Below, piece by piece: positions 42,718 to 56,456 of a stretch of 64,000 bases of DNA. The translations under genes were made by a program, and so were the position numbers. The notes under the pieces were generated by a model. The model ran no database searches. It had not been told where the DNA came from and worked only from the letters and a program-made list of their open reading frames with translations. Positions within the stretch are counted from its first letter, which is position 1; each line of letters opens with the position of its first letter. The DNA is from a virus. The DNA is taken from the IMG/VR virus record IMGVR_UViG_3300008952_000003, positions 124,001-188,000 of that record. One strand, given 5' to 3'.

Positions 42718-42743
42718 TATTAGAAATCACACAGGAGCCTAAA

Positions 42744-43886
42744 GTGCTAAAATCAAACCTATCTGTAGTACCCTCCGTCATCCCACCACTTCCACAGCAG
42801 TCCGCTATCCAGTGGGATACTTATCTTAAATCGTGCCCCACCCGACCAGCTCGGTGTCCGGTACGCGAACACGCCGGGATCAATGGCGGTATCGCAAAAG
42901 AATATTTAATAGATATTCACTTAATCGTAAAAGACCCTTACTATCAAAATCGCCTTCTCGGTGCCCTTGCGAACAAGATTAGTGAGTTAGCTAACCAACT
43001 CCACACTTGTCCAGAAGGGCTGAAAGTTGGTATCTGTGTGGCTCTTGGGCCCAACGGCGACCTTCTATTACGTTGGGGTAACCACCGACTTCGCGCAACT
43101 AAGCAAAACAATGGAAATAACTTAGCTATCCCTAACATGCCCGTAGGAAAAATCTGGGCTTCAATTTATGACTTTCCAACGTCACAGGTTCGCAAGTGGC
43201 AAGCTGTAGAAAATAACATACACGATGTCTCTAGTCCTGCTACAAAAGACGATAATGTACTTTCTTTGAAGGAAATGGTTGCCGCTGGCGAATTGGATAC
43301 TTCTGCTTCCAAGTTTGTCGATTGCGACGACGAAGAAAAGGATAAGCGTTTAAAGAAGATTATTAAAGAAACGATGCCAAGTTGGTCGACCAAAATTAAA
43401 CGTTTGATTAAGGAGTTTCGTCGCCAAAATACCAATGTTTATCGAGTGGAATCGTATACAGCCCGCGAAATGAAAACTTACTTTAAGAAAAACTGTCCAC
43501 TTCACGGAGAACTTGATTTTAGCTCCTATTCGGAGAGTAATAAGAATATTATTAAGTCCACATTGCCAGATGGTTCAGTTCGTTCGAGCAAGATTGTATT
43601 TACTCATGCTGCCAGCGCAGACCTTGGCGGCGCAATCTTTCAAACTGCCATGCAAAACAAATTTGTTGACGTAGACTGCGACGAAGTTGTCTTAGTAAGT
43701 TGTCATAGCGGCAAGGCTGAAGCTGGTTTGAACTCGACTCGAAAGGACCGAGAAACATTAGTCCGAACTTGGAATTCGGCACTACCAGGCGGTTCTCATA
43801 CAAGGTTGATTGATAGGATCTTCGTACTTCCGCAGACAACAGCGGAAAAGAAAGGTTCTAAGTTTATTTCTAAGAAGCCTCTATAG
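42744..43886 (+). CDS. ParB-like protein, copy 2
   Basis: 380 residues, GTG start with AGGAG. WGNHRLRATKQ corresponds to GVHRCEAA of copy 1 at 21966; ATKDDNVLSLKEMVAAGEL, ETMPSW and VLPQTTAE are also shared. The N-terminal 60 residues differ (SCPTRPARCPVREHAG). The copies are diverged well beyond recent duplication, so each probably has its own DNA target. Copy 2 is under an early-type promoter, copy 1 in the restriction operon. Confidence 0.6.
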   Translation: MLKSNLSVVPSVIPPLPQQSAIQWDTYLKSCPTRPARCPVREHAGINGGIAKEYLIDIHLIVKDPYYQNRLLGALANKISELANQLHTCPEGLKVGICVALGPNGDLLLRWGNHRLRATKQNNGNNLAIPNMPVGKIWASIYDFPTSQVRKWQAVENNIHDVSSPATKDDNVLSLKEMVAAGELDTSASKFVDCDDEEKDKRLKKIIKETMPSWSTKIKRLIKEFRRQNTNVYRVESYTAREMKTYFKKNCPLHGELDFSSYSESNKNIIKSTLPDGSVRSSKIVFTHAASADLGGAIFQTAMQNKFVDVDCDEVVLVSCHSGKAEAGLNSTRKDRETLVRTWNSALPGGSHTRLIDRIFVLPQTTAEKKGSKFISKKPL

Positions 43887-43939
43887 ACTACACTAGTACC
43901 AAGGGGCTGACTCCCCCTAACACCTTTCCATAAGGACTC

Positions 43940-43994
43940 TTGACATTCTCTTGACAATTTAACCATTGACTTTAACTTAAATAACGTGTATAAT
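43940..43994 (+). promoter_or_regulatory. Triple-box promoter P3
   Basis: TTGACA 43940, TTGACA 43951, TTGACT 43966, TATAAT 43989. Transcription should start about 44000-44001, exactly at the structured RNA. Confidence 0.85.
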
Positions 43995-44000
43995 GTATGT

Positions 44001-44091
44001 ATAAATAGGGAGAGAGGCGCGGGTTCAAATCCTGTCACGACCAAGGGACCAGTTGTGAAGTGTTGCTAGGTGGCACGCTCGCCCTATTTAT
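44001..44091 (+). ncRNA. Structured RNA, circularly permuted tRNA-like fold
   Basis: ATAAATAGGG (44001-44010) pairs with CCCTATTTAT (44082-44091), extended by GAG/CTC. Inside lie a T-arm-like hairpin (GCGGG-TTCAAAT-CCTGT, 44019-44035), CACGAC (44036-44041) pairing with GTTGTG (44052-44057), and a GTG/CAC hairpin with an 11-base loop (44060-44076) like a D arm. The order T arm, 3' acceptor strand, linker, 5' acceptor strand, D arm is that of a permuted tRNA or the acceptor half of a two-piece tmRNA. It could be a cis leader of 44123 or a free RNA. Confidence 0.55.
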
Positions 44092-44122
44092 ATCACCAAT
44101 CAATTCAAACCAGGAGCCCAAA

Positions 44123-44287
44123 ATGCTGAACGACCCATCACTTCAAGACCTCATTCAAGAAACCATCGAAGAATATTATAAAGAAGAATATAATTACGGT
44201 TTAGATTATGACGAAATGCCAGAAGATTTAGAGGGCGAATGCCCCGAGTGGATTAAGGAACAACTTGATGACGACATCCCATTTTAA
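44123..44287 (+). CDS. Small acidic protein
   Basis: 54 residues (MLNDPSLQDLIQETIEEYYKEEY...), nearly a third Asp/Glu, starting after CAGGAG at ATG 44123. Acidic DNA-mimic proteins are common among early anti-restriction genes, but this is only a suggestion. Overlaps the next gene. Confidence 0.6.
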   Translation: MLNDPSLQDLIQETIEEYYKEEYNYGLDYDEMPEDLEGECPEWIKEQLDDDIPF

Positions 44288-44513
44288 ACAAGGAACACAA
44301 ACAACACTGAAGCCCAATAAAGGGGCATCACAGCGGACCCGAAATCGTATTCGCGAAAAGGGTCCGTCTTTTATTGTCGAGCTTGAGGCGACAATGTTAA
44401 CCAACACAGCCTCTTCAATTGATGGGAAAATTTGTGTTTGCTTTCGACAAATCGATGGTGATTGGTCGGGTTGGCTCCCCGTCGACGAGATTCACGCAAT
44501 AACTTCACTATGA
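44265..44513 (+). CDS. Small hypothetical protein
   Basis: 82 residues; basic N-terminal half (KPNKGASQRTRNRIREKG), then a beta-rich half (SFIVELEATML, ICVCFRQIDGDWSGWLP). It overlaps its neighbours on both sides (ATGA at the end). ATG 44268 is an alternative start. Confidence 0.55.
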   Translation: MMTTSHFKQGTQTTLKPNKGASQRTRNRIREKGPSFIVELEATMLTNTASSIDGKICVCFRQIDGDWSGWLPVDEIHAITSL

Positions 44514-44524
44514 GAGAGAGCAGC

Positions 44525-44749
44525 ATGAAAAGACAATACTTCGAGCCAGGGCAAATTGTTCAGCTAGACCGCCCAGAATTGGGCGAGCGCGATACGTGGA
44601 GATTTATTGTTCTATCTTCGGGTCACAGTCGGTCGCGTCCACCTGGCCGATATTCTCTTTATTGCATTCGCGCCCCATCTTATCGTAAAGCAGACCTCAA
44701 TACCATTCAGTATGTATCTGGTTGCAGCCTGCGAATAACGGAGGACTAA
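44525..44749 (+). CDS. SH3-like array paralogue 1
   Basis: 74 residues. FEPGQIVQL, then WRFIVLSS, PPGRYSLYCI and a final strand CSLRITED define the family pattern used below: an N-terminal 'xPGxIV', a central 'W.IVL', an aromatic strand and a closing strand. The layout fits a small beta barrel. GAGAG before ATG 44525 decides the start over ATG 44510. Function unknown. Confidence 0.7.
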   Translation: MKRQYFEPGQIVQLDRPELGERDTWRFIVLSSGHSRSRPPGRYSLYCIRAPSYRKADLNTIQYVSGCSLRITED

Positions 44750-44752
44750 TAA

Positions 44753-44974
44753 GTGAAGTTTAAATCATCAGATTTTAGCAAGGGTCAATTTTATAAGTTG
44801 AAGACCCAATCCTTTATTATCTTGGATAAGGAATCAATAAGTGGGTGGTTCGACCGCATCTCTGTGTACTTTGTCACGTGCAGAAACAAGCAGTTAAGAG
44901 GAAAGAAAAAAGAATTTACCAGTGGTGGTTTTGAAATTTACTTAAACAAGCTTTGCTCCAGCGAACATAAATAA
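44753..44974 (+). CDS. SH3-like array paralogue 2
   Basis: 73 residues, GTG start three bases after the previous stop. FSKGQFYKL and SFIILDKES fit the family; the closing part (GFEIYLNKL) is more basic than in other members. Its last codons form one arm of the 23-bp inverted repeat. Confidence 0.65.
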   Translation: MKFKSSDFSKGQFYKLKTQSFIILDKESISGWFDRISVYFVTCRNKQLRGKKKEFTSGGFEIYLNKLCSSEHK

Positions 44975-45199
44975 AATGACCGAGGAGGTTACATAACTTG
45001 AAAGCGTAGCCCGTTGCTATATAGGGCTACCTCTTGATTCTAAGGGTTGGCGACAGCGCTGCTTCAGGCGCGGCGCATTATGAGCCTTCTATCTCCATTA
45101 TCAAGGGGGCGCGCGCGAAGCGTCAACAAACAATTTATGTAGATAGGAAGCCGGATATCCGAGCAAAACGGCATCGACCTCCTCGGTCATTTTATTTAT
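44967..45199 (+). ncRNA. Structured RNA closed by a 23-bp perfect stem
   Basis: Bases 44967-44989 are perfectly complementary to 45177-45199. Between them lie hairpins GTAGCCC/GGGCTAC (45006-45030) and GCGCTGC/GCGGCGC (45056-45076), a long-range helix CCTCTTGAT/ATCAAGGGG (45030-45038 with 45100-45108) and GCCTTCTATCT (45084-45094) pairing with GATAGGAAGC-type bases (45139-45152), which crosses the former and makes a pseudoknot. No open frame of note occurs inside. The GC-rich core and pseudoknot suggest a functional RNA. Unrecognised class. Confidence 0.65.
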
Positions 45200-45206
45200 A
45201 ATTCTC

Positions 45207-45261
45207 TTGACATTCTCTTGACAATTTAGTTCTTTACTTTCTCTCTAAAAGCGCGTATAAT
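45207..45261 (+). promoter_or_regulatory. Triple-box promoter P4
   Basis: TTGACA 45207, TTGACA 45218, TTTACT 45233, TATAAT 45256. Drives the four-gene paralogue block from 45288. Confidence 0.85.
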
Positions 45262-45287
45262 GTAAGTATACAAAAGAGAGTTGTGCC

Positions 45288-45536
45288 ATGCTAGACATCA
45301 ATAACTTAAAGTCAGGGCAAATGGTGAGATACTCCTCAAAGATCTTTGATTCTGAGAAATCGGTAGAGTCTTTGTGGATATTGCTAGAGGAAGAACTCGG
45401 AGCCCATCCGCTGGGCCGCGCGTTCAAACTGTATCAAATATATGATAGTCAAAACTATGTCGACCCCCAGTACATAACAGTTACTTACATTTTTAACTCA
45501 CTCAACGCTAAAGATTTCACGCTGGAGGTGCCATGA
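45288..45536 (+). CDS. SH3-like array paralogue 3
   Basis: 82 residues: LKSGQMVRYS, LWILLEEELG, FKLYQIYDSQ, YIFNSL. Its closest relative is the next gene, with which it shares most of these phrases; ATGA overlap between them. Confidence 0.72.
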   Translation: MLDINNLKSGQMVRYSSKIFDSEKSVESLWILLEEELGAHPLGRAFKLYQIYDSQNYVDPQYITVTYIFNSLNAKDFTLEVP

Positions 45537-45793
45537 TAGATATCAATAGCTTAAAGTCAGGGCAAATGTTAAGATATTCCGTAAAATTGTATGCATCGCA
45601 GGAACACGTTGAATCTTTGTGGATATTGCTGGGGGAAAGTAAAGCGCATGCGTTCTGCCGCCCCGGAGAAAGATTGTTCAAAATGTATCAAATATATGAT
45701 AGCCACAATGACCTTTTCATCTTGCGTAATCGACCAACCGATTACATTTTTAACTCAAGTACCATTAAGAATTTTGTATTGGAGCCGGCATGA
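45533..45793 (+). CDS. SH3-like array paralogue 4
   Basis: 86 residues: LKSGQMLRYS, LWILLGES, FKMYQIYDSH, YIFNSSTIKNFVLEP. A clear recent duplicate of paralogue 3 with a longer central loop. Confidence 0.72.
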   Translation: MIDINSLKSGQMLRYSVKLYASQEHVESLWILLGESKAHAFCRPGERLFKMYQIYDSHNDLFILRNRPTDYIFNSSTIKNFVLEPA

Positions 45794-46002
45794 AAGATGA
45801 GCTTAAAGCAGGACAATTAAGAACTGTTCCACGTGGTGGGCTTGAGGGCGCAGTGGTTATTCTTTTGGATATACAGGAACACGCAAGAGTGTTGACCCCC
45901 AAGAATCAGATTTGGAACTCGATTATCGTCTTTTCACCCAGTCCATACTGGGAGCCTGGCGAGAAAATAGGTCTTCGTGGCATAGATTTGATGAACTGGT
46001 GA
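45790..46002 (+). CDS. SH3-like array paralogue 5
   Basis: 70 residues: LKAGQLRTV, AVVILLDIQE, WEPGEKIGLRGIDLMNW. Overlaps the previous gene by four bases (ATGA). Lacks the usual charged loop after the first strand. Confidence 0.68.
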   Translation: MKDELKAGQLRTVPRGGLEGAVVILLDIQEHARVLTPKNQIWNSIIVFSPSPYWEPGEKIGLRGIDLMNW

Positions 46003-46005
46003 GTT

Positions 46006-46239
46006 ATGGATTTCGAACCCGGCCAAGTCCTGAATCTATATAGTGGCTACGAGCAGAGCGCTGAAGAGGAGCTATTGTCATCCAGTATAATCGTGGAAGT
46101 TCGAGAGCACTCCCTGCTTCTGTTTAAATTTTATACTAGATTTCCAGACCCAACAGAGGGCGCCCTCGTACTTCAAGCTAAAGAATATATAGAAGAAGAG
46201 TGGGATAATAAATATTTCTATTGGAGAATAGAAAGTTAA
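46006..46239 (+). CDS. SH3-like array paralogue 6
   Basis: 77 residues: FEPGQVLNL, SSIIVEVREHS, LLFKFYTRF, YWRIES. More acidic than its neighbours. Last member of the P4 block; P5 begins seven bases after its stop. Confidence 0.68.
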   Translation: MDFEPGQVLNLYSGYEQSAEEELLSSSIIVEVREHSLLLFKFYTRFPDPTEGALVLQAKEYIEEEWDNKYFYWRIES

Positions 46240-46245
46240 TTCTTC

Positions 46246-46300
46246 TTGACATTCTCTTGACAATTTAGTTCTTTACTTTCTCTTCGAAAGCGTGTATAAT
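46246..46300 (+). promoter_or_regulatory. Triple-box promoter P5
   Basis: TTGACA 46246, TTGACA 46257, TTTACT 46272, TATAAT 46295. From 46287 to the ATG (46328) its 42 bases are identical to 49458-49499 at P8. Confidence 0.85.
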
Positions 46301-46325
46301 GTATATATAGAATGGAGTTTACCCT

Positions 46326-46928
46326 ATGTCAGAACAAGCCAAAAGACTAGATGCCTTCCTGAACAACAACAGTATTTCTGCCTCTGAACGCTCTTTTGGG
46401 GCCTCCCTAAAAAAGAGTGTTACAAACTACGGAAAGATGACAGAGCGCCAGTGGAGTGCTTTTCAGCGCATGGAGGCGCGCCATAGCCCCGAAGTCAAGG
46501 CCGCTCGAAAACAATGGGAGCAAGACTGGACCGAGGAGAAGGCCAAGAATCTCCGAACCGCCGCCGAATACTATCTATGTAATCCTCCATACTTCGGAGA
46601 GGCAGCCCGAACAATTATCGCAGACCCCACCTACATTCCAAGTCAAAAATTGTATCATAAGATGGTAGAGAATAAGTATGTTCAGAAGGTTTTAACGACA
46701 CTCGCCACAGAGCCGCTCTATCCAGTTGGCAGTCTTGTCCAGGTCAGAAAGACCGCCAGAGAATATGCGTACAAGCTCCGCGACCGCCAGGCGCTAGTTG
46801 TAATGAATGACGGCGTAGTCAAGTCAGCCGCCAAGGGCGCCCGAACTTACACAATTCTTCCATTCGGAGAATCAGGCACCATCACCATCGAAGAACGCTG
46901 GCTCAAGAGAGCCCCGAGGGCTAAATGA
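46326..46928 (+). CDS. Hypothetical cytosolic protein
   Basis: 200 residues, GGAG before ATG. The first 140 residues are helical and charged (MTERQWSAFQRMEARH...), and the end (YPVGSLVQVRKTAREYAYKLRDRQALVVMND...TITIEERWLKR) is beta-rich and resembles the array proteins' 'GxLV...ALVV' layout, so it may be a helical domain fused to an array-like barrel. ATGA overlap with the next paralogue. Confidence 0.65.
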   Translation: MSEQAKRLDAFLNNNSISASERSFGASLKKSVTNYGKMTERQWSAFQRMEARHSPEVKAARKQWEQDWTEEKAKNLRTAAEYYLCNPPYFGEAARTIIADPTYIPSQKLYHKMVENKYVQKVLTTLATEPLYPVGSLVQVRKTAREYAYKLRDRQALVVMNDGVVKSAAKGARTYTILPFGESGTITIEERWLKRAPRAK

Positions 46929-47182
46929 GCACCCATCTATCCCCGAATCCGGGAGATATCCTTGAGGAGAACTGCCCCAGAAGTGATTTCAGGGCAAGAT
47001 ATATTGTTTTATCTATTATCCAAGATAAGCATGCCCCTACTCATGGAAATTCTTACAAGTTGTACACCTTGTTTGTCGAGTCTCCGTGCCCATCGGATAG
47101 GGATTTGCAGGGTACAATCGACACCGTATACAATCTGGAAATAAACAACACCGACCACGACGAATGGCGTATCATCTCTTGA
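46925..47182 (+). CDS. SH3-like array paralogue 7
   Basis: 85 residues: PNPGDILEE, ARYIVLSIIQ, YKLYTLFVES, EWRIIS. The only single copy between the two blocks, coupled to the 46326 gene. P6 overlaps its stop codon. Confidence 0.7.
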   Translation: MSTHLSPNPGDILEENCPRSDFRARYIVLSIIQDKHAPTHGNSYKLYTLFVESPCPSDRDLQGTIDTVYNLEINNTDHDEWRIIS

Positions 47183-47233
47183 CATTCTCTTGACAACTTT
47201 TCTCTTTACTTTCTCTTGAAAAGCGTGTATAAT
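47179..47233 (+). promoter_or_regulatory. Triple-box promoter P6
   Basis: TTGACA 47179, TTGACA 47190, TTTACT 47205, TATAAT 47228. Confidence 0.85.
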
Positions 47234-47281
47234 GTATATGTAAGTTAGAGATTCGCCTACAAACTTTTTGGAGCTATCACA

Positions 47282-48076
47282 ATGGCATACACAAGAAACT
47301 ACAAAAGAACCGTCCGATGCTCATACTGCGGAGATTCCGGTCACAACCGCTCATCATGCTCAAACCTGAAAGAGCATATTGAAAAACTACGCGCCGAACA
47401 CGGCGACGAGCATTATACCGTTCGAGTCCATGACCGCAAGAAAGCAAAACGGAAGGCCAGCGGAAAGAGTCGCAAGTGTTCATACTGCGACGAAGGCGGC
47501 CACAACCGCGCAACCTGTTCGCACTTGAAAGAGCACATGGCTGAAACCAGAGCTAAAAACTCTGAATTCAGGAAGGCTGTTTATAGGCACCTGTGCCGCC
47601 TGGGAATAGGCGTTGGGGCCATAGTTTCGAGCGACACCCACCAGAATCGTATCGATCCAGACAACTTTGAGAGTGCGCGCTACCGAGTTCCGCAGATTGT
47701 AACAGATATAAATTGGCTCGGAATCAACGTATGGAACCGCGAAGTTTGGTATTTTGACAGTTCCTCCTCGGGCCACACTGGCGACCGCCCAGCACCTCTT
47801 TTCGTCGTTCCTATGGGGAACCTCGGCGCCTACAACTGGAAGAATGTAATGGGCTACCCGTTCGATGAGGAGCTTTTAAAGCTGTTTTTGAACGAGCGTC
47901 TTTTGGGAGAGCTAAAGGACGGCTCTCACTGGCGTGCTAATGAGAAGGAAAACCACTTCTTAACTATTGAATCACCCGTTCCGCCCACTGCCCCACCTAA
48001 AGGCTGGTTTAGTTCCAAGGACAAGAAAATTAAAGAGATTTACAAGCGCCGAAAGAGTTGGCAAGGGGCTTTATAA
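47282..48076 (+). CDS. Double zinc-knuckle protein
   Basis: 264 residues. Two CCHC-like knuckles, RCSYCGDSGHNRSSCSNLKEH (residues 13-33) and KCSYCDEGGHNRATCSHLKEH (about 65-85), are separated by a basic linker (HDRKKAKRKASGKSRK). The remaining 170 residues are unmatched, aromatic-rich and end basic. Knuckles of this sort bind single-stranded RNA or DNA, so an RNA-binding regulator acting on the nearby structured RNAs is a possibility. GGAG before the ATG. Confidence 0.75.
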   Translation: MAYTRNYKRTVRCSYCGDSGHNRSSCSNLKEHIEKLRAEHGDEHYTVRVHDRKKAKRKASGKSRKCSYCDEGGHNRATCSHLKEHMAETRAKNSEFRKAVYRHLCRLGIGVGAIVSSDTHQNRIDPDNFESARYRVPQIVTDINWLGINVWNREVWYFDSSSSGHTGDRPAPLFVVPMGNLGAYNWKNVMGYPFDEELLKLFLNERLLGELKDGSHWRANEKENHFLTIESPVPPTAPPKGWFSSKDKKIKEIYKRRKSWQGAL

Positions 48077-48090
48077 GCCCTTTATCACTC

Positions 48091-48145
48091 TTGACATTCT
48101 CTTTACAATTAAAGTATTGATTTATGTTCTAAAAGCGTGTATAAT
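48091..48145 (+). promoter_or_regulatory. Triple-box promoter P7
   Basis: TTGACA 48091, TTTACA 48102, TTGATT 48117, TATAAT 48140. Confidence 0.82.
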
Positions 48146-48190
48146 GTATATATAAGTTAGAGAAACAACACAACAACCTGGAGACTTAAT

Positions 48191-49345
48191 ATGTCTATTG
48201 CTATCACATTCGCAAACCTCAATTCCATGATTCCAACACTCCTTTCGGGAGACGAAAAAGACCTTTATTCAGTTCTTATTCGCGGCCGCCACGGCATCGG
48301 GAAATCATGGGTTGCTTATCAAACTGCTGCCGGCCTCACTTGGGACGCCTCGGAAAACAAGACGCGTCCGCTAAGAGGGAGCGAAAAAGCCCTCCCAGTG
48401 GTTGAGATTCGCGCCTCCCAAATGACCGAGGGCGACCTTCTCGGCCTCCCTTCTCCTCATGAAGTCGACATTAACGGAGAAAAAGCAGCTTCGTTGCGTC
48501 CTTTCGCGTGGCTTGTTAAAGCCTGTACCGAGCCCGTTGTCCTTTTCCTTGATGAAGTTGACCGAGCCACAACGGAGGTTCGCCAGGGCTTCTTTCAGCT
48601 TGGTGATAGTCGTCAAATTAACGGCTGGAAACTTCATCCTGGCACTGTTGTTTTTGGCGCGGTAAATGGAGGAGTTCATGCTGCACAATATCAGGTAGCT
48701 GATATGGACCCCGCAGAGCTTGACCGCTGGGTTACGTTTGACGTCGAGCCATCTATCGAAGATTGGCTCGCTTGGGGCAAATCCGAAGTTCATTCTATTA
48801 TCTGGGATTTTGTCAATCAAAACCATGATCATCTTGAGCACAAGGGGGAATTCGAGCCGGGCACCGTGTACCCTTCGCGCCGCTCGTGGCATCGCTTGAG
48901 CAATACTCTTGCAAAAGTTGATATGCTCGACGAAGAGAGTCCAAATCTGGGGCTGCTATTCAATCTCTCTCATGGGTTCGTCGGCTTTGAGGCCGCCGTA
49001 GCCCTCCGTGATTTTGTTGAGAATTACGAGCGCCAAGTCACTGTTGAGGACATCTTGGTCCATGGCAGAATAGATAAAACCAAGGACTTCGGACTTGTCG
49101 ACCACGTGGCCCTCATCGAAAAGATTGACGCAAGTGGGGTTTTCGCCGCAGCAATTGAGAATTCGAAAATGATCAACTTGGTCGATTACTTCGATGCACT
49201 CCCAGCAGAGGCCCGCATGAAACTGTTTACAACCCTGACCGCAGCTAACAGCCAGGTATCCGCCGAGAATGGAGCGAACTTCCACCGCGAACTGGCCAAG
49301 CAAGGCAAAGTGGAAGCATTTATCAAGCTTCTTGGTGGAAAATAA
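48191..49345 (+). CDS. MoxR-type AAA+ ATPase
   Basis: 384 residues. Walker A GRHGIGKS (residues 32-39), an ASQMTEGDLLGLPSP segment typical of MoxR, Walker B VVLFLDEVDRA, sensor 1 FGAVNGG and an arginine-rich sensor 2 segment (SRRSWHRLS). MoxR ATPases remodel metal-binding or stress complexes together with a VWA partner; the next gene supplies one. GGAG precedes the ATG. Confidence 0.85.
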   Translation: MSIAITFANLNSMIPTLLSGDEKDLYSVLIRGRHGIGKSWVAYQTAAGLTWDASENKTRPLRGSEKALPVVEIRASQMTEGDLLGLPSPHEVDINGEKAASLRPFAWLVKACTEPVVLFLDEVDRATTEVRQGFFQLGDSRQINGWKLHPGTVVFGAVNGGVHAAQYQVADMDPAELDRWVTFDVEPSIEDWLAWGKSEVHSIIWDFVNQNHDHLEHKGEFEPGTVYPSRRSWHRLSNTLAKVDMLDEESPNLGLLFNLSHGFVGFEAAVALRDFVENYERQVTVEDILVHGRIDKTKDFGLVDHVALIEKIDASGVFAAAIENSKMINLVDYFDALPAEARMKLFTTLTAANSQVSAENGANFHRELAKQGKVEAFIKLLGGK

Positions 49346-49368
49346 GAGAGTGTGATAGCAAAGGTTGC

Positions 49369-49418
49369 AGCGCTGGCGTCGGTTGGTTGTTATCCGACGC
49401 TAGCGCTCCCTTTCTCTT
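49369..49418 (+). terminator. Terminator-like hairpin after the MoxR gene
   Basis: AGCGCTGGCGTCGG (49369-49382) pairs with CCGACGCTAGCGCT (49394-49407), 14 bp with one G-T pair and an 11-base loop, followed by CCCTTTCTCTT. The U run is imperfect. It separates MoxR from P8. Confidence 0.7.
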
Positions 49419-49471
49419 GACATTCTCTTGACAATTTAATCCTTTACTTTTGCGCTAAAAGCGTGTATAAT
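49417..49471 (+). promoter_or_regulatory. Triple-box promoter P8
   Basis: TTGACA 49417, TTGACA 49428, TTTACT 49443, TATAAT 49466. Its leader matches P5's base for base. Confidence 0.85.
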
Positions 49472-49496
49472 GTATATATAGAATGGAGTTTACCCT

Positions 49497-50831
49497 ATGA
49501 CACCGACACCCTTTAATCTTGACGAACATATTGTTGGCCTTCTCCGAGACGAGCCCTTCTTCGCCGCCCTCTCGCGCCGCATGGAAAAGGTGGCATCGAG
49601 GTCAGTTCCTACGGCTGGAGTAGCTTTTAATGAGGAGCGCGCCCGGTTTGAGCTATACTATAATCCCGAATTCATGGCAGACATGCTCTCGCAAGATAAG
49701 AAATATGTTAAGGGCATTCTTTTACACGAGTTCTATCATATCATGCTTTTACACGTAACTTCTCGCATGCCCGAAGGCAAGATGACGAGAAAGTGGAATA
49801 TCGCTACTGACCTCGCCATTAACAGCGAGCTATCTGTGTTTGCGGCTAACAGCGAAACTCCAACTGGGTACGCCGTTGAAAGCTCGCTCTTGCCGCTCGA
49901 TAAAGCGCTAATTCCCACTGTTGGGCCATTTTCCGAACTGAAGCCACATCTTTCGGCTGAAGAGTATATGGTTTTATTACCAGAATCCCCAGAGCAAGAT
50001 AATAATCCAGCCGACGGCCCCGGCGAGCCCGGTGACGATTCTGACTCCGATGGTCCCGGCAACCCAAGCGACGGCGATGGTGGTTCGTCACCAAGCGACC
50101 AGGAAGGCGACGAACAAGGAGGAGAGGGAAGTGGAGACGGCAACGGCTTCGATGATCATTCTGATTGGGGTTCTTCCGATGGTTCCGACGAGAATCGAAA
50201 AATAGCCGAAGAGAGACTAAAAGAAGCCATCAAGGAGGCATATGTCGAGGCCCAGTCTCGCGGTTTTGGTTCGGTTTCTGCTAGCATGAGGCGCACAATT
50301 AAGGATGTTATAACTCCCAAGGTAAACTGGCGCTCAATCCTGCGCTCTTTCGTCAAGGCTTCGCAGAGAGCAGATAGAACCTCAACTATCAAGCGCCTGA
50401 ATCGCCGATACGCTTACATTCATCCAGGCCGCAAGGCAAAGCGTCAAGCTAAAATCGCGGTTTCAATTGACCAATCTGGCAGTGTTTCCGATGGCATGCT
50501 CGTTGCATTTTATGCAGAGCTTGAAAAGCTGGCAACCATCGCTGATTTTACGATTGTCCCCTTTGATACCGAGGTTGCAGAAGAGCACATCCATGTTTGG
50601 AAGAAGGGCGCCCGCCACGAAAAGACTCGCTATAAGCATGGTGGAACCTGCTTCAACGCTCCAACCAGGTGGGTCAACGAGAATAACTTTGATGGTCACA
50701 TTGTCCTGACTGATATGGAGGCTCCAAAGCCCATTCCTAGCAAGTGTCAGCGTATGTGGATGACAACCAAGGCGCATGCAGAACGCCCTTACTTCCAGAC
50801 CAATGAGCGAGTGATAGCAATCAATGACTGA
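49497..50831 (+). CDS. VWA-like metallopeptidase-domain protein (MoxR partner)
   Basis: 444 residues. The N-terminal half has GILLHEFYHIMLLH, an HExxH motif, then WNIATDLAINSEL, the pattern of DUF2201-type proteins. A Gly/Asp/Ser/Pro-rich linker (about residues 165-245) joins to a C-terminal VWA-like domain (KIAVSIDQSGSVSDG, a DxSxS MIDAS; then GGTCFNAP and HIVLTDMEAP). With the ATPase upstream it forms the MoxR-VWA pair known from bacteria. In the phage it may remodel a host complex. Overlaps the next gene. Confidence 0.82.
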   Translation: MTPTPFNLDEHIVGLLRDEPFFAALSRRMEKVASRSVPTAGVAFNEERARFELYYNPEFMADMLSQDKKYVKGILLHEFYHIMLLHVTSRMPEGKMTRKWNIATDLAINSELSVFAANSETPTGYAVESSLLPLDKALIPTVGPFSELKPHLSAEEYMVLLPESPEQDNNPADGPGEPGDDSDSDGPGNPSDGDGGSSPSDQEGDEQGGEGSGDGNGFDDHSDWGSSDGSDENRKIAEERLKEAIKEAYVEAQSRGFGSVSASMRRTIKDVITPKVNWRSILRSFVKASQRADRTSTIKRLNRRYAYIHPGRKAKRQAKIAVSIDQSGSVSDGMLVAFYAELEKLATIADFTIVPFDTEVAEEHIHVWKKGARHEKTRYKHGGTCFNAPTRWVNENNFDGHIVLTDMEAPKPIPSKCQRMWMTTKAHAERPYFQTNERVIAIND

Positions 50832-51060
50832 TAGATACCTTAAAATCAGCAATATCGAATCTTTAAAAGCTGGAGATATTCTCTGTCTTCCTATGAAGGG
50901 AGAGCTAGGTGAGTGGTCGAGGCTTGTTGTATACGAGGTTACGAAAAGGTTGTTGAAAACTTATGTATTGCTTGACCAAGCTGGTGGCTGGGCTCCAGGA
51001 GATATGTATAGTTTCCAGTTAATTGGCTTCGACCCTGCGAATTGGAGGCTACTAGCATGA
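50824..51060 (+). CDS. SH3-like array paralogue 8
   Basis: 78 residues: LKAGDILCL, SRLVVYEVTK, WAPGDMYSFQL, NWRLLA. It opens the 14-gene block and its start overlaps the VWA gene by eight bases, so the whole block can be read through from P8. Confidence 0.72.
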   Translation: MTDRYLKISNIESLKAGDILCLPMKGELGEWSRLVVYEVTKRLLKTYVLLDQAGGWAPGDMYSFQLIGFDPANWRLLA

Positions 51061-51284
51061 TTCTTGAGTCTGGAACTATAATCGAGGAAATCTCGGATGG
51101 TCAAGTCGATATCCGGTGCCTGGTGTTGGAGTACGAAAAACATCCAACGGTTCGAGACTTGGGAACGTATGTTTTATATGTGATATATTCAGGCAATACA
51201 TACGCGCTCCCCGGCGAGACGATGGTGGTCAGGAGTACCCTTGTTGAATCTACGCATGCAAATTATCACTGGAGGATAATCTAA
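51057..51284 (+). CDS. SH3-like array paralogue 9
   Basis: 75 residues: LESGTIIEE, CLVLEYEKH, YVLYVIYSG, ALPGETMVV, YHWRII. ATGA overlap decides ATG 51057 rather than the upstream in-frame ATGs. Confidence 0.7.
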   Translation: MILESGTIIEEISDGQVDIRCLVLEYEKHPTVRDLGTYVLYVIYSGNTYALPGETMVVRSTLVESTHANYHWRII

Positions 51285-51535
51285 TGAAGTTTAAACCTGG
51301 AAATTTATTGAAGCACGAGAGGTCTTCCGGGCTCTGGATTGTCGTTGAGGCGCTCCCAATAAATAAGAAGGGCTCGCCTCACCGCCCGACCGTCTTTAGG
51401 CTCCAGATGACTGCCACTTGTGTCCAGCCCGGTACTTCAAACCTCCACTATCCTGGGAGCAGCGATACCTGGCTTTTCAAGGAGAAAGATGGAAGCGACC
51501 ATAACGATATGTGGAAGGTGATAAATGAAATTTAA
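51284..51535 (+). CDS. SH3-like array paralogue 10
   Basis: 83 residues: FKPGNLLKH, LWIVVEALP, FRLQMTATCV, MWKVINE. Start abuts the previous stop (TAATG). Confidence 0.72.
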   Translation: MKFKPGNLLKHERSSGLWIVVEALPINKKGSPHRPTVFRLQMTATCVQPGTSNLHYPGSSDTWLFKEKDGSDHNDMWKVINEI

Positions 51536-51770
51536 AGTCGGAGATTTAATAACTCACAAGCCTTTGGGTGGTAATACCGCCGTTGATGCGATTATCTTGA
51601 AGCACTGGCAAACTGAAACACCAGGAATGGGCGCCCAACAAAAGACGCAGCGCGTTGATAACGTGCATTTATTCATAACTTTCGACGAGGCTGACCCGAC
51701 TGCAGTTGGCGATATTGACGTGATGTGCGGTTTCCGAGAGCAGCATTGGAGCTTAAAAAATGGAGTTTAA
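51525..51770 (+). CDS. SH3-like array paralogue 11
   Basis: 81 residues: FKVGDLITH, DAIILKHWQ, VHLFITFDE, HWSLKNG. Pairs with paralogue 12 through the shared ILKHW/VVKHW and LF.T phrases. Overlaps the previous gene by 11 bases. Confidence 0.7.
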   Translation: MKFKVGDLITHKPLGGNTAVDAIILKHWQTETPGMGAQQKTQRVDNVHLFITFDEADPTAVGDIDVMCGFREQHWSLKNGV

Positions 51771-51981
51771 AGCTGGAGATATTGTAGTTTATAAACAGGA
51801 CGGCAAATCGTCAATTGAGGGCATTGTCGTCAAGCACTGGAAAGGGCCAAACCCGTGGGTAGCGGGAACCATTGATAATGTAGATTTATTCGTAACTTTG
51901 GATACGACCTGGCCTTCTAAGCTTCATAAAATTGAGACGTTTAGAAATTTTAGTACCCAGATTTGGGAGGTGAAAACATGA
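51760..51981 (+). CDS. SH3-like array paralogue 12
   Basis: 73 residues: FKAGDIVVY, EGIVVKHWK, VDLFVTLDT, IWEVKT. Close sister of paralogue 11, overlapping it by 11 bases. Confidence 0.7.
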   Translation: MEFKAGDIVVYKQDGKSSIEGIVVKHWKGPNPWVAGTIDNVDLFVTLDTTWPSKLHKIETFRNFSTQIWEVKT

Positions 51982-52205
51982 AAAAGGGCGACCTAATTCA
52001 GCTTCGAACCTCGGTTGCCGCGCGCCGCTGCAGGGGGATTGTATTGGAAGACGCCCCAAAAGATGCCAATTTTAGAACGAGAATCGCGGTGTATATGTTT
52101 TACGTTCCATCCTGGAACAACCTTAAATCAGGGGAAATTTGGGACATCCCCCTGAACAAGCTAGGCAAGCAATATGAGATTTTGGGTAAAATCGAAACTA
52201 TCTAA
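51978..52205 (+). CDS. SH3-like array paralogue 13
   Basis: 75 residues: MKKGDLIQL, CRGIVLEDAP, VYMFYVPSW, LKSGEIWDI, QYEILGK. ATG 51978 overlaps the previous stop with GGAGGTG upstream. Confidence 0.7.
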   Translation: MKKGDLIQLRTSVAARRCRGIVLEDAPKDANFRTRIAVYMFYVPSWNNLKSGEIWDIPLNKLGKQYEILGKIETI

Positions 52206-52208
52206 GGT

Positions 52209-52478
52209 GTGAAAAAGAGATATCTCCCAGGTCAAATAGTGAGTTTTATGAGGACTGGGGCTATATATTTGTTAATTGAGGAAGTGGAGATATCAATGCT
52301 TTCACCTCATTTTTTTAAAGGAACTGGTCAGGGGTTTAGAGCTAGAATTCTCTATACAGGAAGAACCTGGTCGAAACCAGGCGAAGAAAGGGAGATATTC
52401 ATCCTGCACGCATCATCTTATTACGAGATTTTATCGGACGTCGCCCCAGCCGCGCCCGCCCAGATAGTTGGTGATTAG
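52209..52478 (+). CDS. SH3-like array paralogue 14
   Basis: 89 residues, GTG start: YLPGQIVSF, IYLLIEEVE, ILYTGRTWSKPGE, YYEILSD and a short Ala/Pro tail. It is followed by a terminator, so it probably ends the first half of the block. Confidence 0.7.
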   Translation: MKKRYLPGQIVSFMRTGAIYLLIEEVEISMLSPHFFKGTGQGFRARILYTGRTWSKPGEEREIFILHASSYYEILSDVAPAAPAQIVGD

Positions 52479-52500
52479 CGCGTTTCGCGCGATTTTTTTC
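52478..52500 (+). terminator. Terminator inside the array
   Basis: GCGCG-TTT-CGCGC (52478-52490) followed by GATTTTTTTC. Short but GC-rich stem and a good T run; more T-runs lie at 52507-52514. Confidence 0.7.
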
Positions 52501-52531
52501 CGCTAAATTTTTTTTTCAACAGGATCACATT

Positions 52532-52789
52532 GTGAAGTTTAAACCAGGAAATATCATCGAACATTGCCCCACCAAAACAAGATGGATTGTGCTCTCTGCA
52601 GAGAATGTCGAGAAAAGAACAGGAATAAACAGCGCTTATAAGCTAGAAGTCGAAGCTTATTGCGTCTATTTGGGAAAACACAAGAGGGCAATTAAATATT
52701 GGGAAGTTAATCAGCGTGATACCTTTGTTTTGACACAGCAAGATTTAAATCCGAGTGACTTTGTATGGGAGGTTAGGAATGAAGTTTAA
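52532..52789 (+). CDS. SH3-like array paralogue 15
   Basis: 85 residues, GTG start: FKPGNIIEH, RWIVLSAEN, YKLEVEAYCV, VWEVRNEV. Nearest to paralogue 10. No promoter was seen between the terminator and this gene, so it depends on readthrough or an unseen start. Confidence 0.7.
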   Translation: MKFKPGNIIEHCPTKTRWIVLSAENVEKRTGINSAYKLEVEAYCVYLGKHKRAIKYWEVNQRDTFVLTQQDLNPSDFVWEVRNEV

Positions 52790-52970
52790 ACCAGGACAAT
52801 TGGTGAGAAAGAAAGCGAGAAAAGGAGATCCAGACGCAATCTATTATGTATTGGACACGAACTATCCTAAAATGCTGATTCATTGTGTTGAATCACTCTT
52901 TGATTTTATACAGGGGGAAGCCTATGAAGTCTGTGTTGGTGAGTGTGAATTGTTGATGGATTACCGATGA
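52779..52970 (+). CDS. SH3-like array paralogue 16
   Basis: 63 residues, the shortest member: FKPGQLVRKK, IYYVLDTNY, IQGEAYEV, CELLMDYR. ATG 52779 with GGAGG upstream is chosen over an in-frame upstream ATG. Confidence 0.66.
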   Translation: MKFKPGQLVRKKARKGDPDAIYYVLDTNYPKMLIHCVESLFDFIQGEAYEVCVGECELLMDYR

Positions 52971-53212
52971 CCTCGAAACCCGCGAAGATTAGGCTTGAAG
53001 CGGGGGATATCGTAACTCTCGATTATGCCCGCGACAAGCCAAAGGGAGACGCGCCATTATTCATAACGCTAGATGATCCGCCCTCGGTACACTATTCGGT
53101 GAATGTTTACTGCTTTTATAGCCCAGATCCAGGGTATGGGTACACGAATGCTGCTTGGCTTCATACAATTTTTGACATTTCCCAGAGCAGGTTAATAAAA
53201 GTTAATTATTGA
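52967..53212 (+). CDS. SH3-like array paralogue 17
   Basis: 81 residues: LEAGDIVTL, LFITLDDPP, VYCFYSPDPG, RLIKVNY. ATGA overlap with the previous gene. N-terminal extension of nine basic residues. Confidence 0.7.
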   Translation: MTSKPAKIRLEAGDIVTLDYARDKPKGDAPLFITLDDPPSVHYSVNVYCFYSPDPGYGYTNAAWLHTIFDISQSRLIKVNY

Positions 53213-53233
53213 AAAAGTTTTTCTATTTACAAT

Positions 53234-53500
53234 GTGAGCGACTTCTTTCCAGGTGATTTCATAGAGGAAACCATCGATAATAGAATAGTTGGCTATTATA
53301 TAGTATTAACCAGGCATTATTTAAACGGTTGCAAAGAGGATGGCATGATTTTGGGATATTACACTTTAATAGTATATAGTACAGGACACGCATTGCCAAC
53401 TCATTCTCCAGGATCAAACTGGTTTATCAAGCACTCTGATTTACAAAAATCCGATTTCAGAGTGGTATCCAGTGGCAAATTGTTGTGTCAAAGTCAATAA
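53234..53500 (+). CDS. SH3-like array paralogue 18
   Basis: 88 residues, GTG start: FFPGDFIEE, GYYIVLTRHY, YTLIVYSTG, SPGSNWFI, DFRVVSSG. First of four members with 'YIV..RH/RR', which form a subgroup with the next three. No clear ribosome site. Confidence 0.68.
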   Translation: MSDFFPGDFIEETIDNRIVGYYIVLTRHYLNGCKEDGMILGYYTLIVYSTGHALPTHSPGSNWFIKHSDLQKSDFRVVSSGKLLCQSQ

Positions 53501-53799
53501 TAGAAATCAATCCGGGTGACATTGTGGCGGAGATACTTGGCGGAGAAGAGACGGGCCGATATATTGTCACGAGCAGAAGATTCGTGCGAGACCACACATT
53601 AAGAGAATATGTCATGTATGAGGCGATTATTATATATATAACTGATGAATGGACAGACTTTCATAAGCCGGGTGATAAGTGGTCATTCGAATTGTATTCA
53701 GACGGGCACAGTATACAGGACGTTAGTTTCGGATCTTACACCTACAAAGTCCTGTTTAGAAGCTCGTTAACGTGGAAAGACATAGAAGTCATGGAATAA
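53485..53799 (+). CDS. SH3-like array paralogue 19
   Basis: 104 residues, GTG start inside the previous gene: INPGDIVAE, GRYIVTSRR, EAIIIYITD, KPGDKWSFEL and the tail SSLTWKDI. Shares the tail 'SxLxWxD' with paralogues 20 and 21. Confidence 0.7.
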   Translation: MSKSIIEINPGDIVAEILGGEETGRYIVTSRRFVRDHTLREYVMYEAIIIYITDEWTDFHKPGDKWSFELYSDGHSIQDVSFGSYTYKVLFRSSLTWKDIEVME

Positions 53800-53807
53800 A
53801 CACGCTA

Positions 53808-54146
53808 ATGACATTTGACGCAAAAACATTTAAAAAGAGCATCAGAAGGGGTGATATCCTCGTTGAAAAGTACAAACTAACAAAGCACGGACATCGAGAA
53901 GTGGTTAGCATATATCTAGTATTAAACAGGCATATGGAGAGTGAACCCATGGTCGATGGATACGAGAGAACACTTTTTTATAAAACCTATTTAATGTACG
54001 TTAATACTCGACAATGGTCATCAGGAGAGAAAAATCTGGTTGGAACGATATACTATTTATCAGAGCATGAAATCAGTGACCATCACAATTGGGAAAAACT
54101 GTTTGAATCTGGTTTATCATGGAATGATTCTTATCCGAGGACATAA
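53808..54146 (+). CDS. SH3-like array paralogue 20
   Basis: 112 residues, longest member: IRRGDILVE, SIYLVLNRHM, KTYLMYVNTR, SSGEKNLVG, ESGLSWND. ATG 53808 is chosen; the frame is open upstream but lacks a ribosome site. Confidence 0.7.
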   Translation: MTFDAKTFKKSIRRGDILVEKYKLTKHGHREVVSIYLVLNRHMESEPMVDGYERTLFYKTYLMYVNTRQWSSGEKNLVGTIYYLSEHEISDHHNWEKLFESGLSWNDSYPRT

Positions 54147-54154
54147 AAAAGAAA

Positions 54155-54433
54155 ATGAAAATTGATGAGTTATCTCCAGGGGATATAGTAAGAGAGAAGG
54201 ACGGCGATGAAGAAATAGCTCGTTATATAGTAATAAACAGGCATATCCAGCACCCAGGCGCACAATATTATTATGTCGAATATGATTGTATAATATTGTA
54301 CTATAATGGTAAGTTATACCAGAGACCTGAAAAGGTAGGAACATGGTGGATAATTGATTCAATCAATCTTAATAGTCCCAGAGAGAACTGGGAAATTGTG
54401 GTAGAAAGTGGGTTATCGTGGGATGATGATTAA
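54155..54433 (+). CDS. SH3-like array paralogue 21
   Basis: 92 residues: LSPGDIVRE, ARYIVINRHI, YDCIILYYNG, TWWIIDS, WEIVVESGLSWDDD. Last gene of the array; followed by about 350 bases without a gene. Confidence 0.72.
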   Translation: MKIDELSPGDIVREKDGDEEIARYIVINRHIQHPGAQYYYVEYDCIILYYNGKLYQRPEKVGTWWIIDSINLNSPRENWEIVVESGLSWDDD

Positions 54434-54733
54434 TATCACAAAACGTAGATTAAAATAAGGGAATAATAGAATCACAATAGGCATGGAAGAAATAGGGGAA
54501 TCACGGTGAGGATCTAGTACGTTGTAACTAGAATGTCAAGCGCCATTATTGTGAAGATTCTGTCAATTCTTCATATATTTACTTGACAAATGTAAACACG
54601 CTTATATACCCCCTTATCGCAATCACAGTACTCATATCGAGTGATTAATCATATGCCACCATCAAACACACTAATCGCGTGTCAAGTATTTAATTGTCAA
54701 AAGAATGTCAAGTGAAGATAAACAAGATTCCCC
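54434..54733. other. Gene-free AT-rich stretch
   Basis: No gene seen. It contains several TTGAC/GTCAA steps and a possible second promoter (TTGACA at 54583 with TATATAC downstream). No clear inverted repeat. Confidence 0.4.
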
Positions 54734-54763
54734 TTGACATTTCCCCCAATATCATGGTATACT
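54734..54763 (+). promoter_or_regulatory. Promoter for small membrane peptides
   Basis: TTGACA 54734-54739, 18-base spacer, TATACT 54758-54763. Confidence 0.7.
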
Positions 54764-54779
54764 AGTATTATAGGAGAGA

Positions 54780-54920
54780 ATGATGGAAGCACTATTACGC
54801 AATATACTCCTGCTTTTTGGAGTGTTGTTCATAATTGACTTTGTAACTGAATATCCAAAGACATTCGATAATGTCGATGAAACCGTTGAAAACATTAAAG
54901 CCAAATTTGGCAGTAAATAA
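54780..54920 (+). CDS. Small membrane peptide
   Basis: 46 residues (MMEALLRNILLLFGVLFIIDFV...), one membrane helix then a charged cytoplasmic-type tail. AGGAGAG precedes two in-frame ATGs (54780, 54783). Confidence 0.6.
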   Translation: MMEALLRNILLLFGVLFIIDFVTEYPKTFDNVDETVENIKAKFGSK

Positions 54921-54930
54921 GGAGATTATC

Positions 54931-55017
54931 ATGCCATCACGATTTACCGACATTGTAATAGTGATATCACTCGCGTATCTTGTGGGTTTTGCATTGTATG
55001 CTTACATACTAGCTTAA
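54931..55017 (+). CDS. Single-helix membrane micropeptide
   Basis: 28 residues (MPSRFTDIVIVISLAYLVGF...), almost entirely one membrane helix. GGAG ten bases before ATG supports translation. Confidence 0.5.
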   Translation: MPSRFTDIVIVISLAYLVGFALYAYILA

Positions 55018-55125
55018 TCACAAAACACGTCAAACGCACAAATCTGACAGAAAATTCGGAGAGCCTATAAGAATATAAATATTATGTCCTCGGTCATATA
55101 GAGGGTTATAACACGAATATCACTC

Positions 55126-55180
55126 TTGACATTCTCTTTACAATTAAGTGATAGACTTCAAACGCTATCGGGTGTATAAT
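55126..55180 (+). promoter_or_regulatory. Triple-box promoter P9
   Basis: TTGACA 55126, TTTACA 55137, TAGACT 55152, TATAAT 55175. Most diverged copy that keeps the 11/15/23 geometry. Confidence 0.8.
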
Positions 55181-55208
55181 TGTATTATAAGTCAGAGGAG
55201 CGACCCAC

Positions 55209-55400
55209 ATGAATAAAAAACGCCGTTCATATCGTCCACGCAAGCCGGCCCGCACGCCTTGGATTGTCTGTTGGACTCACAACACAACAGGATTCGCAGA
55301 CGCGTCGACTGTGTACGCGAAAGACGAGGAACAAGCTAAGCTTTTGGCGTCTAACGGTTACACCTCGAACATCACAATTACCAGCGTTTATCGCGCTTAA
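55209..55400 (+). CDS. Small basic protein
   Basis: 63 residues: a basic start (NKKRRSYRPRKPARTP), then WIVCWTHNTTGFADASTVYAKDEEQAKLLASNG, a strand-helix layout. GAGGAG before ATG. Confidence 0.65.
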   Translation: MNKKRRSYRPRKPARTPWIVCWTHNTTGFADASTVYAKDEEQAKLLASNGYTSNITITSVYRA

Positions 55401-55423
55401 TCACCCCAGTATAGGATAATAAT

Positions 55424-55819
55424 ATGAAAGATATCAGATTAATGATTGCAGAAAAAATGGACGATATGCTTGACGAGCTTTTGTCAGACCTCGCGTACGA
55501 CTTAGACCTGGATGATGCCGATTTGGATTACGACGTTAAACAGGATGTAAGTGATGAATGGGGCACCATGGTCGATAAAATCACTGAAGCTGTTGAGAAT
55601 CACGTTCAGGCAGTTGTCGAGGTTAAAACAGAGCAATTGCTTGAAGAGTGGAAAGGGTGGTCATTGCCTATTATCAAGAAAGAATGCGAACAAGATGGCG
55701 TCATGGACGGGCCAGCGCGCCGAGAGGATTGGTGCAATTTCGTCGACGCAAAGCAGAAAAACGGTGAAATCTCCGATTTTGTCGCTGAACTCGTGGATGC
55801 TGACGTTGAGAGTGTATAA
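55424..55819 (+). CDS. Acidic hypothetical protein
   Basis: 131 residues, rich in Asp and Glu (LLSDLAYDLDLDDADLDYDVKQD), helical. A DNA-mimic or inhibitor role is a guess only. TAATG overlap with the next peptide. Confidence 0.65.
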   Translation: MKDIRLMIAEKMDDMLDELLSDLAYDLDLDDADLDYDVKQDVSDEWGTMVDKITEAVENHVQAVVEVKTEQLLEEWKGWSLPIIKKECEQDGVMDGPARREDWCNFVDAKQKNGEISDFVAELVDADVESV

Positions 55820-55911
55820 TGAATGACTCAATATTGGACTTTCTTGGCCTATTATCAATCTTCGCAACCTGTTATTTCCTGCTAATCGCATCACAACTCA
55901 TCGGAGCATAA
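55819..55911 (+). CDS. Membrane micropeptide
   Basis: 30 residues (MNDSILDFLGLLSIFATCYF...), one hydrophobic helix, ATG overlapping the previous TAA. Confidence 0.5.
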   Translation: MNDSILDFLGLLSIFATCYFLLIASQLIGA

Positions 55912-55913
55912 TT

Positions 55914-56183
55914 ATGTTTGACCCACACGCAATCGGACCTTTTGCAGAATCCCAAACCAAGGCTTTAAGCTTCATTACGAGCCTTATCGTTAATACTGCA
56001 GTCACCGAGACTCTTAAAGTCATGGATGATATGCAGTTAGAAGGCAAACAATTGCTTAAAGAACTTCGAAGTTCCGAGGGCAATAAAAAAGAAGAAGTAA
56101 AAGCAGCTTTGAAACTGCACATTAAAGACTCTAAACTCTTGCTTGAAACCATTATGATGAACCCAATCGAAAAGGATGCTTAA
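55914..56183 (+). CDS. Small helical protein
   Basis: 89 residues; hydrophobic-amphipathic first half (SQTKALSFITSLIVNTAVTETL) and a lysine/glutamate helical second half. Unknown. Confidence 0.6.
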   Translation: MFDPHAIGPFAESQTKALSFITSLIVNTAVTETLKVMDDMQLEGKQLLKELRSSEGNKKEEVKAALKLHIKDSKLLLETIMMNPIEKDA

Positions 56184-56186
56184 ACC

Positions 56187-56456
56187 ATGCGTATTGAAAA
56201 CTATAAATCAAATCAAACTATCGTTCACACTAACACTTATACCGCTCTCTTGAGCTATGGAGTCCCTCAAGTTGTTGTTTGTAACCCAGATATGCCATCG
56301 CTTGGTAATACTGTGCTTGTGAATAATAAGAAATACTCAAACACTACTTCGAAGCACCGCAATGCTTATTTGCGTCAATTGTGTGATCGTTCATATACTA
56401 TCATCGAAGCAACCCCCGCAGAGATTCAAGAAGTCACCGGCCTAGAAACCCGATAA
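56187..56456 (+). CDS. Conserved small phage protein
   Basis: 89 residues. SYGVPQVVVCNPDM and YSNTTSKHRNAYLRQL resemble, from memory, a small phage family of unknown function whose members carry a 'T.SKH...FL' motif. Beta-strand first half, helical second half. Confidence 0.6.
   Translation: MRIENYKSNQTIVHTNTYTALLSYGVPQVVVCNPDMPSLGNTVLVNNKKYSNTTSKHRNAYLRQLCDRSYTIIEATPAEIQEVTGLETR

Follow-up and report, generated by a model that had tools for sequence, protein, structure and literature searches.

The 64,000-nucleotide stretch analyzed here (the window) covers positions 124,001 to 188,000 of the IMG/VR virus record IMGVR_UViG_3300008952_000003, which is 193,157 bases long and is labeled G000 below; labels of the form L009 denote related viral loci. 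Between positions 44,525 and 54,433 the window carries an array of small genes, numbered g01 to g21, in two slots that flank a pair of genes encoding a MoxR-type AAA ATPase and a metallopeptidase with a von Willebrand factor A-like part (VWA). An earlier note on this DNA, made from the letters alone, had described 21 small genes in three groups. All 21 open reading frames (ORFs) were recovered on the + strand, each intact, with a plausible start and a product of 63–112 amino acids (aa). Six of them lie at 44,525–46,239, one at 46,925–47,182, and 14 at 50,824–54,433, and within the groups the genes mostly abut or overlap.

The first group comprises g01 (44,525–44,749, 74 aa; ortholog L010:7018, 86%), g02 (44,753–44,974, 73 aa; ortholog L010:7243, 83%), g03 (45,288–45,536, 82 aa) and its sister g04 (45,533–45,793, 86 aa), g05 (45,790–46,002, 70 aa; orthologs in L009, L010, and L013), and g06 (46,006–46,239, 77 aa). 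The single gene g07 (46,925–47,182, 85 aa) stands apart. The third group begins with g08 (50,824–51,060, 78 aa), which starts within the last 8 bases of the VWA gene, and continues with g09 (51,057–51,284, 75 aa), g10 (51,284–51,535, 83 aa; a relative of g15), the related genes g11 (51,525–51,770, 81 aa) and g12 (51,760–51,981, 73 aa), g13 (51,978–52,205, 75 aa), g14 (52,209–52,478, 89 aa; orthologs in L009, L010, L011, and L013), g15 (52,532–52,789, 85 aa), g16 (52,779–52,970, 63 aa), and g17 (52,967–53,212, 81 aa). It closes with a subgroup of four, g18 (53,234–53,500, 88 aa), g19 (53,485–53,799, 104 aa), g20 (53,808–54,146, 112 aa), and g21 (54,155–54,433, 92 aa).

Significant pairwise relationships were detected by phmmer for g03/g04, g11/g12, g10/g15, and g18–g21; the subgroups 3/4, 11/12, and 18–21 of the earlier note were thereby reproduced, and the pair 10/15 was added. 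For the family as a whole, a hidden Markov model (HMM) was built from 20 genes and the omitted gene was scored against 1050 shuffled sequences, a leave-one-out test that is lenient for any gene whose close paralogue stays in the model. Eighteen of the 21 genes scored above all 1050 shuffles, which rules out chance low-complexity similarity as the source of their shared phrases; g02, g06, and g14 did not. Of these three, g02 and g14 are supported by orthologs in related arrays, while g06, for which no ortholog was found, is the weakest member. A profile of all 21 genes matched exactly these 21 places in the whole record at E<=0.1. As the profile was built from the same genes, the informative part is that there were no additional matches, indicating no further array copies in the 193,157 bases at this threshold. 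The net charge of the array proteins spans −10 to +8. Another small protein (44,289–44,513) is encoded just upstream of g01. It is not matched by the 21-gene profile, contains GASQRTRNRIREKG as a conserved stretch, and has a counterpart at the head of the L015 array (6194–6427).

Related loci were reached via VWA, MoxR, or the gene junction described below, so arrays elsewhere could be missed. The VWA protein search of viral contigs returned at least 157 stretches, 80 of which were kept, and the MoxR search returned L009–L013 at 82–89% identity and the more distant L014–L016. Arrays of the window type occupy the same slots in L009, L010, L011, and L013; L012 begins just before MoxR and has array members behind VWA. 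In L015 and L016, the same slots are filled by shorter proteins of the pattern MKVGDLV...G[IV]V...V.W...LEVI.ESR. Across 82 loci, hundreds of array proteins, either of the window type or of the shorter relative (MKVGDLV...LEVISESR), were found in these slots. Among the small ORFs of the 82 loci, a G-D-hydrophobic start was present in 31% on the + strand (1296/4116) versus 4% on the − strand (165/4081), and an HMM iterated from the 21 genes collected 791 + strand ORFs at E<1e-3 and none on the − strand. With iteration the search drifts toward the shorter type, which indicates a continuum and not one tight family; in a profile–profile comparison, the two types could be linked over no more than the first hairpin (hhalign probability 91.5, p 9e-7). 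The expansion and diversification that the earlier note had seen in one phage are therefore borne out far beyond it.

The arrays stay close to the VWA gene, and their copy number differs strongly between phages. In eight records of 185–196 kb, about 120 of 131 profile matches lie within 15 kb of the VWA gene, one record having two weak matches only. All eight junction-bearing records of at least 139 kb have a VWA homologue, and the records lacking one are fragments of less than 80 kb. Among genome contigs, the junction pattern occurred in four metagenome-assembled records only, three of which are small contigs and possibly phage. One of the four is a contig named TaraRedSea, which makes a marine origin of the phages likely. 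In isolated phages, no relatives of g21 or of the shorter-type consensus were found, and one shorter-type member gave insignificant matches only.

The array proteins do not belong to a named family as far as database searches could tell. Pfam and PHROG scans of nine of the 21 window proteins gave scattered weak matches only, and no protein scanned in Pfam matched the KOW family profile. PADLOC, the library of which holds defence proteins and not counter-defence proteins, matched none of 56 family members, and sequence searches of the PDB with array proteins gave nothing usable.

Structure prediction was more informative about the fold class. AlphaFold, run on a 56-row alignment for g15 and on 45 rows for one shorter-type member, modeled g15 as a five-strand barrel (predicted local distance difference test score, pLDDT, 90; strands 8–11, 16–30, 34–46, 62–68, and 79–83) and gave five strands for the shorter relative (pLDDT 80). 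The top Foldseek matches were EF-P domain I, aIF5A, CAP-Gly, and HspQ for g15, and Spt5/NusG KOW, MutS2 complexes, and PcrA/UvrD tudor for the shorter type, with none at E<=0.001 for either model. The SH3-like barrel supposed in the earlier note is thus well supported as a predicted fold class, with g15 as the sole window protein modeled and SH3-like top matches of weak E-value; specific homology to a solved fold is not supported by these models. Across the family, framework columns are conserved and loops are variable.

These matches raise the alternative that the array proteins act as KOW/tudor-like factors, which would attach to RNA polymerase, the ribosome, or nucleic acid and thereby adjust transcription or translation in phage or host. 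The best matches of the shorter type to the KOW and tudor domains and the MutS2 complexes, and those of the window type to EF-P domain I and aIF5A, speak for it. However, the KOW profile found no match in Pfam, the wide range of net charge argues against one shared nucleic-acid surface, and a general factor would not be expected as dozens of fast-exchanged copies. We consider this explanation unlikely.

The ends of the array genes also carry signals for the genes behind them. Shorter-type genes are most often joined by a 14-base overlap (181 cases), about TGGAGGTNATCAGTGAAAGTCGGTGATTTAGT, which provides the Shine-Dalgarno sequence and start of the next gene while encoding the LEVISESR tail. 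In g08, g09, g10, g12, and g15 of the window, the codons of W-[RKE]-[VIL] read TGGAGG, TGGAAGG, or TGGGAGG and, standing directly ahead of the following start, form the Shine-Dalgarno sequence of the next gene. As these codons serve twice, part of the C-terminal similarity reflects a constraint from the ribosome site. Where no gene follows directly, in g06 and g07, the W-ending codons do not form a Shine-Dalgarno sequence and the tryptophan is still kept; the closing aromatic column is 98% aromatic across the family. The closing W+I/V strand, which the earlier note had counted among the shared traits, thus holds for its aromatic residue family-wide, and the similarity around it is partly accounted for by the second use of its codons.

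The gene content of the arrays was then compared with that of their neighbors. Between G000 and L009, MoxR is 89% and VWA 77% identical, while the only array genes of G000 with partners in L009 are g05 (43%), g14 (52%), g20 (37%), and part of g17, with g19 being marginal (26%). Over locus pairs, in a tabulation lacking other small genes as a matched control, the fraction of array genes that had a partner of at least 40% identity was 0.42, 0.25, 0.15, and 0.02 at VWA identities of 85–95%, 75–85%, 65–75%, and 55–65%, respectively. Judged from these comparisons, array gene sets turn over far more quickly than MoxR and VWA do, probably by gain, loss, and exchange of whole genes.

Three observations bear on where exchange takes place. 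First, an extra array gene (4290–4487) in slot 1 of L036 has its match in slot 2 of L053, and the breaks fall on gene starts; the two loci also differ at other places. Second, the relatedness of g05 shifts abruptly near the gene start: L010 and L013 are identical ahead of g05 and across its opening bases and then diverge, whereas G000 resembles L010 through the gene body. Third, the third-base identity of junction codons was 0.604 within loci versus 0.554 between loci, a small difference that had the same direction in 32 of 43 loci and was not seen inside genes. Together, the slot difference, the g05 break, and the junction third bases favor exchange at gene starts, for which we infer recombination as the mechanism.

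Selection on the array genes was assessed from the ratio of nonsynonymous to synonymous substitution rates (dN/dS) between orthologs of G000 and L010. The ratios were 0.09–0.56 in each of the array genes compared and 0.04 in MoxR, with several dS values near saturation, indicating that the array genes are maintained by purifying selection. The earlier note had expected elevated substitution in one face of the barrel. No such elevation was found: pooled framework and variable positions had amino-acid identities of 80% versus 63% and dN/dS of 0.19 versus 0.23. Neither the gene-wise ratios nor the pooled positions revealed positive selection within orthologs, and positive selection was rejected as the engine of diversity.

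A different source of diversity would be the joins themselves, if the tandem genes were a by-product of recombination in which short conserved joins ease duplication and exchange and most copies have little function. Conserved joins with a fixed overlap and the strong variation in copy number speak for such a process; the low ortholog dN/dS, the intact reading frames in all 21 genes, and the persistence of arrays across many divergent phages speak against it, and we regard this account as quite improbable.

The pair between the two slots consists of the MoxR-type AAA ATPase of the N4 gp24 family (48,191–49,345, + strand; Pfam AAA_5, phrog_1297, and the N4 gp24-like annotation in RaK2) and the DUF2201_N metallopeptidase plus VWA-like protein of the N4 gp25 family (49,497–50,831, + strand; Pfam, phrog_1314, RaK2 gp25-like). 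An AAA_5/MoxR ATPase thus stands beside a DUF2201_N-DUF2201 protein, the arrangement of the N4 gp24/gp25 pair, and Klebsiella phage RaK2 has counterparts of both genes, annotated there as N4 gp24/gp25-like. N4 gp24 and gp25 are listed as conserved proteins of N4-like viruses (PMC7650795). Two other + strand genes of the region are syntenic in relatives, a 200-aa gene between g06 and g07 (46,326–46,928) and a gene for a 264-aa protein with two C2H2-type zinc-finger matches (zf-C2H2_10; 47,282–48,076). Farther away, the window encodes a phage GroEL-type chaperonin (29,216–30,784) and an 897-aa protein with repeated HYDIN/ASPM-type Ig-like domains (32,766–35,459).

Promoter-like sequences suggest a link between the pair and the array. 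The element CTTGACATTCTCTTGACAATT is made up of two TTGACA-like repeats spaced by about 11 bases, is followed by a promoter-like stretch, and stands before MoxR, VWA, and array genes alike. One copy lies before g03 (45,206–45,226, + strand), further + strand copies start at 42,234, 42,662, 43,939, 46,245, 47,178, 48,090, 49,416, 55,125, and 56,788, and one copy found by the same pattern search is on the − strand (54,692–54,712). These 11 copies, at up to 2 mismatches, are all that occur in the 193 kb, and all fall within 42,234–56,808 of the window; the reversed pattern had 0 matches in the record. Their confinement points to joint regulation of MoxR, VWA, and the array as a single module. The earlier note had taken the array genes to be co-transcribed, which is too simple: several promoter-like copies split the region, g08 overlaps the end of VWA, and a terminator-like hairpin with a T run, read from the sequence, lies between g14 and g15 (52,477–52,504, + strand).

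Between g02 and g03 lies a candidate structured RNA (44,973–45,198, + strand). It folds strongly (z −6.7) into a structure with a long terminal helix, GAGGAGGU/ACCUCCUC, and in an alignment of four phages nine pairs are changed on both sides. The candidate also occurs in L013, L011, and L009, there between the 200-aa and 264-aa genes; it was absent from the 48 other loci searched and had no match in Rfam. A weak second match to the RNA model (E 0.0014) lies at 18,953–19,127 of the G000 record.

The position of the arrays is the basis of the main rival to the reading that we favor. According to this rival, the array proteins are interchangeable MoxR-VWA adaptors, one side of the barrel docking on the VWA/metallopeptidase protein or the MoxR ring while the variable loops choose the protein to be remodeled or cut. 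Array slots flank MoxR-VWA in many divergent phages, a VWA homologue accompanies every large junction-bearing record, g08 overlaps the VWA stop, and the same promoter-like element precedes all three kinds of genes; HspQ (5ycq), an SH3-like specificity factor of the AAA+ protease Lon, is also among the Foldseek matches of both models. However, HspQ is one of many SH3-like matches with weak E-values, no conserved docking surface was identified, and linkage within one clade can be ancestral. Moreover, no array was seen near the pair in the isolates SCTP-2, RaK2, phiKT1024, and VBP47, so arrays are not a general companion of MoxR-VWA, which evidently works without them. We therefore hold the adaptor explanation to be possible but doubtful. 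Its wider form, a modular recognition system in which the MoxR-VWA/metallopeptidase machine would be steered to different host proteins by dozens of swappable SH3-fold adaptors, with joins that allow trading of one gene at a time, seems to us rather unlikely.

A role in virion assembly would connect the array to the same pair in another way. In a passage on jumbo phages, Iyer et al. (2021; PMC7824862) proposed that virions are assembled with the help of MoxR-vWA pairs carrying an N-terminal metallopeptidase, and the array proteins might then be clients or accessories of that process. Structural parts are rarely exchanged so fast, however, and array content differs strongly between related phages, which makes this the most improbable of the explanations weighed here.

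We favor, tentatively, the explanation that the array serves in host interactions, as a bank of exchangeable binding modules with the SH3 fold. Small SH3-like barrel proteins would be held as single-gene cassettes in two fixed slots beside MoxR-VWA, each keeping the barrel framework while its loops and surface differ. Cassettes would be gained, lost, and swapped at gene starts, giving each phage its own set, and a shared set of dedicated host-type promoters would most likely drive expression of both the array and MoxR-VWA. Each array protein may have its own target, a protein or nucleic acid of the host (or of a rival), which it would block or redirect, with counter-defence or host takeover as the presumed outcome. 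The diversification against many targets that the earlier note proposed is plausible. Several of the above results nevertheless weigh against the host-binding bank: the absence of detectable positive selection within orthologs, the empty PADLOC search, the lack of a Foldseek match below the threshold, the missing control in the turnover table, and the small size of the junction signal. In addition, free-standing host binders would leave the constant linkage to MoxR-VWA unexplained.

Few descriptions exist of a phage in which a single tiny protein family has expanded. In the present case such expansion is seen repeatedly, in two fixed genome slots, within a large and seemingly marine group of uncultured phages, and the gene sets change faster than the genes beside them. 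Should the array proteins bind host proteins, they would offer a ready-made collection of natural binders of host factors; should they work for the MoxR-VWA machine, they would allow tests of what this widespread and poorly understood phage gene pair does. In agreement with the earlier note, no description of such arrays was found in the open-access literature, and none appears in the relevant passages of Iyer et al. (2021; PMC7824862) or Kaur et al. (2020; PMC7159879).

Four known systems invite comparison. Small uncharacterized SH3-like phage proteins in BFVD, some named DUF1653, and T4-type gp30.5, which came closest among predicted structures of viral proteins, resemble the array proteins in size and barrel (E 0.01–0.35, probability up to 1.00), but share less than 20% identity with them in structural alignments, and the array proteins have no Pfam or PHROG match. 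Bacillus phage G likewise has a lineage-specific expansion of a tiny family in one phage, about 35 zinc-ribbon proteins, according to a passage in PMC7824862; their fold is different, and that passage does not describe tandem order, joins, or exchange between phages. The N4 gp24/gp25-type pair of Schitoviridae and jumbo phages belongs to the same families as the two genes between the array slots, but in the sampled isolates, unlike in the window, it is not flanked by arrays. Finally, the vWA-MoxR conflict systems with variable parts treated by Kaur et al. (2020), ternary systems with VMAP and iSTAND in the passage concerned (PMC7159879), combine a MoxR and vWA core with a variable third part, as is seen here. 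Neither VMAP nor iSTAND was found among the window proteins scanned in Pfam, although no search was aimed at those profiles. Unlike those ternary systems, the locus described here couples a VWA protein that has an N-terminal metallopeptidase domain with variable parts that are separate, predicted SH3-like proteins.

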